Shown here: positions 3,547 to 18,428 of the stretch, in pieces
Numbering within the stretch: the first letter of the stretch is position 1
Layout of the letters: every line of letters begins with the position of its first letter
Notes under the pieces: generated by a model
Database searches by the model: none
Seen by the model: only the letters and a program-made list of their open reading frames with translations
Told to the model about the DNA's origin: nothing
Origin: Desulfobacteraceae bacterium
GTDB taxonomy: Bacteria > Desulfobacterota > Desulfobacteria > Desulfobacterales > ETH-SRB1
NCBI GenBank assembly: GCA_028571455.1
Contig: JAPVVG010000168.1
Coordinates: 1 to 34,334, forward strand
Direction of reading: 5' to 3'
DNA: 34,334 nucleotides
Translations under genes and position numbers: made by a program

Positions 3547-3835
3547 ATAACCTTTTGATAATGAATGAATCTAAGGCAGTAGCGATTTTGCGGACAATAA
3601 AACTAACCCACCTCAAACAATTAACCTTTTAAAGCAACATAATAAATTTCTTTGGAATAGAGGTATAGTGTCGCAAAGGTATTTTTCATTACCTCTGTTG
3701 GCAGAACTTGCGGGACATCCATTAGTTTATAAGTTGACGTGGCAATTGAACTGAAGAATGCAGTTGACTGTGTTGAATAAGTCTGATGCGAAATTTCCAA
3801 GGAAGCGTCCACCGGGAGAAGGGGGAGGTTATAAA

Positions 3836-4366
3836 ATGGGTAAAGGTTATCTGGTGCTTGGTGAACTTGTCGATTTCATAACCGGCGAAACCATAAAAGA
3901 TACACATGACGAGCGCTATAAACAAAAATTAGCCCGTTTGCTTGTTGATGATAAGGGTTATCAAAAAAATGAAATCAAAGCCGGTTGTGAACTTCATGTA
4001 AAAGCTGGAGATAAAAGCGCAATTTTAATTGTTGATTTTATGGTTACCTTATCAGGAAAAATCTGCATGATAATTAAATATGCCCCGGGCTCCCTGGTAA
4101 CCAGATGCCGGCCCGCGCTTGCCGTATCAAGACTTGTTGCCGGTTATCAGGTGCCTGTCGTTGTTGTATCAAACGGAAAAGATGCAGAGATTATTGATGG
4201 TTCAACAGGAAAGGTAATTTCGCATAATCTTGAATCCATACCTTCAAAATCTGAAATCCTTTCTATTGCCGAACATACTGGTTTTACGCCAATTTCGGAA
4301 AAGCAAGCCATGATGGAAGCTCGAATTATTTATGCTTTTGAAATTAATGACAGTTGCCAAATATGA
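3836..4366 (+). CDS. Stand-alone HsdR N-terminal-like protein
   Basis: The ORF track starts at 3758, but the ATG at 3836 is preferred because GGGGGAGG lies 7 nt upstream, inside what the longer version would translate; this gives 176 aa beginning MGKGYLVLGELVDFITGE. The region around HDERYKQKLARLLVDDKGYQ, then GCELHVKAGDKSAILIVDFM and later ALAVSRLVAGYQVPVVVVSN, resembles the small proteins annotated as type I restriction enzyme R subunit N-terminal (HSDR_N_2) domains, a nuclease-fold module. No helicase part, specificity subunit or methylase is nearby, so a restriction role is not supported. Function is unknown; the family call is by pattern memory and is moderate. Confidence 0.6.
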   Translation: MGKGYLVLGELVDFITGETIKDTHDERYKQKLARLLVDDKGYQKNEIKAGCELHVKAGDKSAILIVDFMVTLSGKICMIIKYAPGSLVTRCRPALAVSRLVAGYQVPVVVVSNGKDAEIIDGSTGKVISHNLESIPSKSEILSIAEHTGFTPISEKQAMMEARIIYAFEINDSCQI

Positions 4367-4457
4367 CGCGACTTATTTTTTTCTTGCATTTCTTAATGTT
4401 GTTATATATGCGATAGTTTTGCAAATAAGGATTTAAAATTAAGACTCACTACAGTTG

Positions 4458-4588
4458 GAGACCTTTGAATTTTGTCAGAAATAGTCTGAATCATCATTCC
4501 CGTGAAAACGGGAATCCAGTATTCTCAATTAGTTATAGATTCCCGCTTTCGCGGGAATGACAGGAAGGGGACGTTTTGCAAAGGTCTC
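4458..4588. mobile_element. MITE-like element, GAGACCTTTG termini, 8-bp target duplication
   Basis: The element begins GAGACCTTTG (4458-4467) and ends CAAAGGTCTC (4579-4588), perfect 10-bp inverted repeats. It is flanked directly by TACAGTTG at 4450-4457 and 4589-4596, an exact 8-bp direct repeat consistent with target-site duplication. Inside are two oppositely oriented copies of a CATTCCCG...CGGGAAT hairpin, a nested repeat. It encodes no protein and lies just upstream of the infC ribosome-binding site. A relative with the same termini lies at 29542-29683. Confidence 0.85.
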
Positions 4589-4612
4589 TACAGTTGATTA
4601 AACTGCAACATC

Positions 4613-4628
4613 AGGAGGTAAAGGCATA
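4613..4628 (+). promoter_or_regulatory. Shine-Dalgarno plus AUA initiation codon of infC
   Basis: AGGAGG at 4613-4618 is followed after 7 nt by ATA at 4626-4628. Between the in-frame stop TAA at 4599 and the GTG at 4710 the infC frame contains no ATG, GTG, TTG or CTG. AUA is thus the best-placed start for a full-length IF3. Confidence 0.75.
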
Positions 4629-5165
4629 GCAATATTCAGACATACAAACAGACCAGCCAGATCAAACAGAGTAAACATTAATAATAGGATAAGAGCAAAA
4701 GAGGTAAGGGTGATAGATCCTGACGGCAATCAGATCGGCATTATTCCAACTTATAAGGCGCTCGCAACGGCCGCTGATTTTGGTCTTGACCTGGTAGAAA
4801 TTTCTCCTAACGCAGACCCTCCTGTTTGCAAAATAATGGATTATGGGCGGTATAAGTATCAACTGACCAAGAAACTACAGGAAGCAAAAAAGAAACAAGC
4901 CTCATTCCAGGTAAAAGAGATAAAGATACGTCCAAAGACCGGAGATCATGATCTGCAGACCAAGATAGGTCATATAAAGAAATTTATCGGCAAAAAGGAT
5001 AAGGTCAAGGTAACCGTTGTTTTTAGAGGCCGGGAAATTACACTATCCCAGCGCGGCAGGGATTTACTGAAAAGAGTTGCTGAAGAAATCGACGATATAG
5101 CATTTGTGGAGCAGCATCCCAAATTTGAGGGACGCAGCATGGTGATGGTTCTATCGCCAAAATAA
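4626..5165 (+). CDS. infC: Translation initiation factor IF-3, probable AUA start
   Basis: The ORF track gives 151 aa from GTG 4710, which would delete the start of the IF3 N-terminal domain. The same frame is open upstream and reads AIFRHTNRPARSN then INNRIRAKEVRVIDPDGN, the expected IF3 N-terminus; with ATA 4626 as start the protein is 179 aa, the normal length. Further motifs are DLVEISPNADPPVCKIMDYG (linker region), VKEIKIRPKTGDHDLQTK and the C-terminal VEQHPKFEGRSMVMVL. IF3 binds the 30S subunit and rejects non-canonical start codons; a rare start on its own mRNA is the known basis of autoregulation in E. coli (AUU there). Leads the infC-rpmI-rplT group. Gene identity is near certain; the exact start is inferred. 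Confidence 0.95.
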   Translation: MAIFRHTNRPARSNRVNINNRIRAKEVRVIDPDGNQIGIIPTYKALATAADFGLDLVEISPNADPPVCKIMDYGRYKYQLTKKLQEAKKKQASFQVKEIKIRPKTGDHDLQTKIGHIKKFIGKKDKVKVTVVFRGREITLSQRGRDLLKRVAEEIDDIAFVEQHPKFEGRSMVMVLSPK

Positions 5166-12558: not shown

Positions 12559-12702
12559 ATTATTTCCTCCATTTTTTAGTTCAGCCACAAAGGCACTAAG
12601 ACACCAAAATTATAGTATAATTTGGGAATTTAGGGATTCGCCTCGCTTAATTGCGAATTTAGGGATTCAGGAATTAAGGAATTGAAGGTATCCTATTGAT
12701 TT

Positions 12703-12758
12703 CAATCCCTCAATCCCTCAATCCCTCAATCCCTCAATCCCTCAATCCCTCAATCCCT
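12703..12758. repeat. Octanucleotide tandem repeat (7 x CAATCCCT) over the lnt stop
   Basis: Seven uninterrupted copies of the 8-bp unit CAATCCCT, then a partial CAAT. The minus-strand lnt stop codon (TGA, 12752-12750) and its last codons KLRD are encoded by the repeat. Related AATTTAGGGATT units lie at 12627-12675. Copy-number change would not alter more than the C-terminal tail of Lnt. Confidence 0.95.
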
Positions 12759-14318
12759 CAATTTTATATTATAAACATATTTTAACACAAAGCAAATAGC
12801 TGTTGCAACAACACAGGCTATTGCAAACATATCTCCGAAACGGGTATAAAAGGATGTCATACCTATTAAAGGCACAGAACGTGTAACCACCGCTTCCTTA
12901 AAAAGATCTGTTTTTTCGATAATTCTGCCAACAGGATCGATAAAGCCGCTTATTCCTGTATTTGCCGACCTGATAAGGGCCCGCCTGTTTTCTACAGCTC
13001 TGAATATTGCCATGGAAAAATGCTGATAAGGAGCGCTGGTTGTGCCAAACCACGCATCATTGGTAATATTTATGAGCAATGATGCATTATTTTTTGCCAT
13101 AGCTCTGGAAAGGTCTGGAAAAATAATCTCATAACAGATCTGCAAACCTAAACTATACTCCCCCCACTTAATGGTTTTGCCTTTAATACCAGGCTTGAAA
13201 TCACCAACCCCTTCCACCATTTTGCCGACAAATGGCAACCATTTATTAAAAGGGATGTATTCTCCGAATGGAACAAGATGCACCTTGTCATATTTGTCGC
13301 ATACCTTTCCATCCCGGCTGATCAGGTAAGCTGTATTGTAATGTTCAACAACCCCTTTTTTACGGACAAAGGAAGGGCTGCCAAACAGGAATGTTGTTCC
13401 TGCATCATTAATCCCTTTTTTAACCATGTTTGAGAGCCCGACATTATAAAGGAAATAAAAAGGGACGGCGGTTTCAGGCCAAACAACAATGTCGGGATTA
13501 TTTTTTTTTGATAAAAGTGAAAGCTTAATATATTTTTTTACAGTTAAGCGTTGAAATTCAGGATTCCATTTTACAGCCTGATCAATATTTCCCTGAACAA
13601 CTGCGGCTTTAATTGATGGAGAAGAGTAAACAAGTTTATCAATTGAATCTATTCGCCATTTGCCATAAGACAATACAAGGACAATAATCAGCGCAAAAAC
13701 AGATATTGATCCAAAAGCGACCCTTTTTGTTACGGCCTTCCTTTTCCAGTCTTTTCCCGCCAAATAAAGAACCGCCAGAAAAATTGTCGCATTTGATAGG
13801 ACAATTAAAAAGGATACGCCGTAAACTCCAAAGATGTCTGAAATCTGTATAAGAAGTAAATTGTTATATTGGGAATAACCGATAAGTTCCCATGGAAAAC
13901 CAAGAAAAAAAAGGCTGCGCATATATTCAAATGCGATCCATAAAACAGGAACTGCAAATATGCAAATCGCGGGCTTTGCACATAAATTTAATAGGGTTGC
14001 TGAAAATGCCGCCGGGTAAAGAGCAAGAAAGGCGGAGAGAAGAATGAGTATAAACGTGCCTAACAGCAGGGGAAGGTGGCCGTATGTATGCATTGTATAT
14101 ACAAGCCAGTACAAAAGTGTTAGATAATGAACAAGTCCTGCAATAAAGCCAAGGATAAAACCTCTTTTTGGAGAAAGGTTTCTTATTGCGATTAAGAGCG
14201 GAACAAGAGCGAACCAGGCAAACAAGCTAATACCGATTTTGGGAAAAGAACCGGTAAGGAGCAATCCGCTCAATATCGCCAGGCATAATTTTAGTTTGTT
14301 AATTTTTTGGGTTTGCAA
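12750..14318 (-). CDS. lnt: Apolipoprotein N-acyltransferase
   Basis: 522 aa, usual length. Transfers the third acyl chain to the N-terminal Cys of lipoproteins in the inner membrane. The N-terminal half has about seven hydrophobic segments (LCLAILSGLLLTGSFPKIG, ILILLSAFLALYPAAF and others). The C-terminal half is a nitrilase-like domain with the Glu-Lys-Cys triad visible in VVWPETAVPF, KVHLVPFGEYIP and LQICYEIIFP. A last transmembrane helix near the C-terminus precedes the tail KLRD, which is encoded by the octamer repeat. prfB lies 191 bp downstream on the same strand. At least two lipoproteins with lipoboxes are encoded in this window. Confidence 0.96.
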   Translation of the reverse strand: MQTQKINKLKLCLAILSGLLLTGSFPKIGISLFAWFALVPLLIAIRNLSPKRGFILGFIAGLVHYLTLLYWLVYTMHTYGHLPLLLGTFILILLSAFLALYPAAFSATLLNLCAKPAICIFAVPVLWIAFEYMRSLFFLGFPWELIGYSQYNNLLLIQISDIFGVYGVSFLIVLSNATIFLAVLYLAGKDWKRKAVTKRVAFGSISVFALIIVLVLSYGKWRIDSIDKLVYSSPSIKAAVVQGNIDQAVKWNPEFQRLTVKKYIKLSLLSKKNNPDIVVWPETAVPFYFLYNVGLSNMVKKGINDAGTTFLFGSPSFVRKKGVVEHYNTAYLISRDGKVCDKYDKVHLVPFGEYIPFNKWLPFVGKMVEGVGDFKPGIKGKTIKWGEYSLGLQICYEIIFPDLSRAMAKNNASLLINITNDAWFGTTSAPYQHFSMAIFRAVENRRALIRSANTGISGFIDPVGRIIEKTDLFKEAVVTRSVPLIGMTSFYTRFGDMFAIACVVATAICFVLKYVYNIKLRD

Positions 14319-16652: not shown

Positions 16653-16661
16653 CCCGTGGGC

Positions 16662-16781
16662 AGATGTCAGAAGTCGGAGGTCGGAGGTCAGAGGTCAGAG
16701 GTCAGAGGTCGGAGATCGGAGGTCGGATGTCAGAAGTCGGAGGTCAGATGTCAGAGAACCAGTAACCAGTAACCAGCAACC
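16662..16781. repeat. Degenerate heptamer tandem repeat between metK and ahcY
   Basis: About thirteen units of the form (A/G)GAGGTC / AGATGTC / AGAAGTC, followed by three AACCAGT/AACCAGC heptamers. It ends 19 bp before the ahcY start. The track ORFs across it are simple-sequence artefacts. Confidence 0.9.
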
Positions 16782-18341: not shown

Positions 18342-18428
18342 TGGTGCCGAAGGGGAGACTCGAACTCCCACAGGCATACACCCACTAGACCCTGAACCTA
18401 GCGCGTCTACCAGTTCCGCCACTTCGGC
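18342..18428 (-). tRNA. tRNA-Leu (anticodon CAG)
   Basis: On the minus strand an 87-nt tRNA starts GCCGAAG and ends CTTCGGC-A-CCA, with CCA encoded. The 5' region GTGGCGGAACTGGTAGACGC has the leucine-type D arm, the anticodon loop reads GGTTCAGGGTC giving CAG, a long variable arm follows, and GAGTTCGAGTCTC is the T arm. The ORF 18182-18385 across it is a shadow. Confidence 0.97.

Follow-up and report, generated by a model that had tools for sequence, protein, structure and literature searches.

The sequence evidence strongly supports an AUA codon at position 4626 as the start of infC, the gene for translation initiation factor IF3, in this Desulfobacteraceae bacterium. It is highly probable that translation starts there by mismatch decoding with the initiator tRNA and that IF3 limits its own synthesis at this codon. 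Nearly all sampled relatives share the AUA start, which therefore looks like real self-limiting control of a known type and not a peculiarity of this single genome. Positions refer to the window, the whole stretch of 34,334 nucleotides that was analysed. The source genome comprised 2.93 Mb on 267 contigs, was 97% complete and held a single copy of infC. Coordinates of the relevant features are compiled below.

Features of the infC locus with their positions in the window, strand and supporting evidence
Feature	Position	Strand	Evidence
infC, translation initiation factor IF3, 179 aa	4626..5165, stop included	+	TIGR00168 score; IF3_N and IF3_C complete from ATA
In-frame stop TAA, upstream bound of the infC frame	4599..4601	+	read from sequence
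Shine-Dalgarno sequence AGGAGG of infC	4613..4618	+	spacing; anti-Shine-Dalgarno tail in own genome
Start codon AUA of infC (strongly supported)	4626..4628	+	column conservation; no in-frame NTG from stop to conserved motif
GTG, default start for a standard gene caller; read here as internal Val codon	4710..4712	+	column variable in relatives; IF3_N cut

The infC frame was open from ACT 4602 to the stop codon ending at 5165, and its start region reads ATA GCA ATA TTC AGA. The earlier note had described this open frame, the absence of any in-frame ATG, GTG, TTG or CTG ahead of GTG 4710 and an AGGAGG seven bases before the ATA, all of which agreed with the sequence; the gap spans positions 4619-4625. 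AGGAGG can pair with the 16S rRNA, since the 3' tail GGATCACCTCCTTT with the anti-Shine-Dalgarno sequence is present once in the organism's own genome. The infC start is a non-NUG codon behind a Shine-Dalgarno sequence, with no usable canonical start upstream and with a position that is conserved in relatives.

Membership in the IF3 family was evident from scores above the cut-offs of TIGR00168, PF05198 and PF00707. The protein initiated at ATA contained a complete IF3_N domain (profile positions 1-70) as well as IF3_C. Initiation at GTG would reduce IF3_N to profile positions 13-70 and yield 151 residues, and the TIGR00168 score was 222.5 bits for the long frame versus 201.5 bits from GTG, with a cut-off of 60. 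The suggestion that the interval upstream of GTG encodes the IF3 N-terminus, and that a start at GTG drops 28 residues, was borne out by these comparisons. Residues linked to IF3 fidelity in Escherichia coli are conserved: Tyr75, Arg99 and Arg131 align with Y78, R102 and R134 of this protein.

Searches recovered infC from 56 of 58 relatives and from 110 of 116 order genomes, and 120 infC loci were read as the order sample. The name Desulfobacterales for this order follows from named loci among the best matches (Desulfoluna butyratoxydans and Desulfobacterales MAGs); D. butyratoxydans (L194) has ATA. Each in-frame NTG and ATN codon was scored by its Shine-Dalgarno sequence and spacing. By this rule, the starts were ATA in 115 loci, ATT in two, ATC in two and TTG in one, and ATG was never chosen. 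Inspection by eye reassigned one locus (L083) to ATA and left another (L053) without an assigned start, giving ATA 116, ATC 2, ATT 1, ATG 0 and one locus with no assignment. L053 (1440-1480), a member of the order, has neither an NTG nor an ATN codon where the start normally follows GGAGG, and reads GGA GGC GAG TCG GCA GAC AAG CGG there. Among the order loci with ATA, the spacing from GGAGG to ATA was seven bases in 66, six in 20, eight in 15 and five in 12. In 69 of 115 such loci, an in-frame stop preceded ATA by at most 10 codons, and 61 of the 111 that were testable had no NTG at all between the stop and the conserved N..IR motif. When the choice was opened to all 64 codons, the best-placed codon after the Shine-Dalgarno sequence was ATA in 98 of 118 order loci; this rule was not relied on alone, because its control on rpmI was weak (ATG in 18 of 51), an outcome for which a loose search pattern was probably partly responsible. 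These comparisons show where infC starts, that this start is conserved and that AUG is avoided. The alignment proposed in the earlier note gave the expected picture: GTG 4710 was not conserved, but the N-terminal extension and the ATA were, through the genus, family and order and in a large part of the phylum. The AUA start proposed in that note is matched by the ATA that 116 of 120 order loci carry in this column after a Shine-Dalgarno sequence.

The ATA at this column is not a chance isoleucine codon, since its frequency of 116 in 120 compares with 28% ATA among the other isoleucine codons of the order's infC genes (n=1774; about 26-28% over the compared sets). Internal ATA codons numbered no more than one in 31 order loci, of which 30 still started with ATA and one with ATC; these counts are not independent because the loci are related by descent. 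If the codon could drift freely between ATA, ATT and ATC, such uniformity would not be expected in genomes that avoid ATA.

Non-canonical infC starts are known, including AUA for infC in Staphylococcus aureus. Triplets without a 3' G (AUU, AUC and AUA) are subject to IF3 discrimination (PMC4611024), which substantiates the earlier remark that this discrimination includes AUA. The infC start is ATC in Streptomyces (PMC5472188) and ATT in Bacillus subtilis (PMC1805508). The gene described here resembles E. coli infC in encoding IF3, in its Shine-Dalgarno sequence, in an ATN start without a third-position G and in the absence of an AUG alternative. It differs in that the start is AUU in E. coli and AUA here, and that infC directly follows thrS in E. 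coli, whereas no thrS lies just upstream here. The gene itself agrees with the E. coli type of infC in every feature visible in its sequence, and feedback would follow by analogy. With S. aureus infC, the gene, its AUA start codon and an extended Shine-Dalgarno sequence are shared (PMC13009471). Ribosome profiling located retapamulin-enriched ribosomes at that AUA, and autoregulation was suggested by the authors (PMC13009471). S. aureus belongs to a distant phylum and its start was mapped experimentally, whereas the start here was read from sequence and is conserved across an order. Streptomyces and Myxococcus infC likewise have a non-canonical start open to IF3 feedback, although theirs is AUC (PMC5472188). 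In Streptomyces sigR, a GUC start is repressed by IF3 (PMC5472188), so that a non-canonical start again serves as a handle for IF3, but the gene and codon are different and the regulation is not of IF3 itself.

In the proposed mechanism, the initiator tRNA with its CAU anticodon would decode AUA with a third-position mismatch, and the strong Shine-Dalgarno sequence at good spacing would aid initiation at this codon. IF3 would destabilise initiation complexes on codons without a third-position G and so limit its own synthesis. Low IF3 would permit more starts at AUA, and high IF3 would switch AUA initiation off. By homology, we infer autoregulation of this infC; the grounds for both mismatch decoding and feedback are the genetics of the E. 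coli AUU start and the fact that IF3 is a conserved protein. An improbable alternative is that the AUA start merely keeps IF3 synthesis constitutively low, with no feedback by IF3. Non-AUG starts cut output by themselves, AUA and AUU sites of S. aureus reaching about 10% of AUG when the medium was poor (PMC13009471). Feedback is a better fit to the combination of a strong Shine-Dalgarno sequence and IF3-sensitive infC codons kept across phyla, and in E. coli the AUU start of infC confers IF3 feedback that is abolished by a change to AUG, according to the summary of Butler 1987 given in PMC5472188.

Other starting points for translation were each considered very unlikely. If IF3 started at GTG 4710, the upstream open frame would be an untranslated leader. 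GTG 4710 is the first canonical start, with GAGG five bases ahead of it, but the protein part upstream of it is conserved order-wide and includes N19 and I22, which were invariant across 28 diverse IF3s. The GTG column itself was not kept: it held GTG in 20, CTG in 17 and TTG in 6 of 111 loci, as well as GTT, GTC, GTA and others. Together with the loss of the first 12 IF3_N positions, this led to the rejection of GTG 4710 as the start. A minor short form of IF3 may nevertheless arise there, given the GAGG preceding it. A start at ATA 4632, the second in-frame ATA and two codons after 4626, is equally unlikely. The codon recurs commonly among relatives (ATA GCT ATA), but it lies 13 bases from AGGAGG, which is too distant, and its column varies (ATT, ATC, AAG, AGG, AAC, CTG, TTA) while the first ATA is kept, so it was also rejected. 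Translational coupling through a short upstream frame ending at a UAG that overlaps the AUA (AUAG) would agree with the G found directly after ATA in 129 of 148 loci, but is scarcely credible and was discarded, since this G is accounted for by an Ala or Val second codon and the overlapping frame was open upstream for a median of 11 codons, hardly longer than the 8 in a control frame.

Beyond the order, starts chosen by rule in 68 further infC loci of the phylum were ATA in 33, ATC in 13, ATT in 12, CTG in 9 and GTG in 1. The named bacteria used as controls behaved as expected, with ATT in E. coli and Bacillota and ATC in Myxococcus, in keeping with the AUU and AUC examples that the earlier note had mentioned; Nitrospira in the named sample also had ATC. 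By eye, Geomonas, Malonomonas and nearly all Rhodobacterales had ATA, the latter with weak Shine-Dalgarno sequences. The view of AUA as a rarer infC start needs qualifying, since AUA is not especially rare in this gene: it was the most frequent start in the phylum sample, recurs in Rhodobacterales and has been mapped in S. aureus (PMC13009471). In a tree of 269 IF3 proteins computed with FastTree, at least 31 start-codon changes were needed, versus at least 3 between canonical and non-canonical starts; the tree is built on a short protein and 31 is probably an overestimate, yet the contrast with 3 holds. It is conceivable, though on balance doubtful, that selection in Desulfobacterales, and in Rhodobacterales too, favours AUA specifically over other non-AUG codons at the infC start, and that lineages thereby adjust IF3 feedback to differing set points through AUA, AUU, AUC or CUG and almost never change to AUG.

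No description was found of the near-fixation of AUA across an order, of AUA as the most frequent start in the phylum or of the group with CTG. The literature search yielded no account of infC starting at AUA in either Desulfobacterota or Rhodobacterales; part of this ground may already be treated in an arXiv survey of non-AUG genes (2008.10758, cited in PMC9845219) and in Hecht 2017 (PMC5397182). An essential gene can thus retain one of the poorest start codons order-wide, even in genomes that avoid AUA. Gene callers restricted to ATG, GTG and TTG would remove a median of 33 residues from the order's IF3 where no upstream codon misleads them. The lineages with AUA, AUC, AUU and CUG constitute a natural series in which the influence of the start codon on IF3 feedback could be compared.

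Several observations were made on individual loci. CTG appeared to be the infC start in nine members of the phylum (L055-L061, L063 and L066), in which no canonical start fits; GGAGG is followed after 7-8 bases by CTG and then by GAR or AAA. Rhodobacterales loci (L212, L214, L216, L220, L223-L227 and others) showed ATA-GCC-CGC-AGA in GC-rich genomes behind a weak Shine-Dalgarno sequence of the AGAAGGA type. One record titled Comamonas sp. KCTC 72670 (L257, 2001-2507) is probably mislabelled or contaminated, because its infC start region is nearly the same as in Myxococcus (L266).

In the window, no RNA structure beyond that of shuffled sequences was detected over the infC start region (z 0.52), and no promoter or terminator signal in 4300-4720 exceeded shuffles. 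No Rfam family was found near infC, and the only match in the whole window was a tRNA at 18345-18428. Ahead of infC, an ORF of 202 aa with an HSDR_N_2 domain was located at 3758-4366. Most relatives have another conserved ORF ending at this place instead, and thrS is not directly upstream. A repeat of about 131 bases at 4458-4588, whose terminus lies 37 bases ahead of the infC start, has terminal inverted repeats of 10 bases (GAGACCTTTG / CAAAGGTCTC) and, further inside, the palindromes ATTCCCG..CGGGAAT. It had 45 matches in the genome, mostly partial, and looks like a MITE- or REP-type element in the infC leader. Two tandem repeats were present elsewhere in the window, one of 7.6 perfect copies of TCAATCCC at 12702-12762 and one of CAGAGGT-type units of 7/21 bases at 16661-16756.
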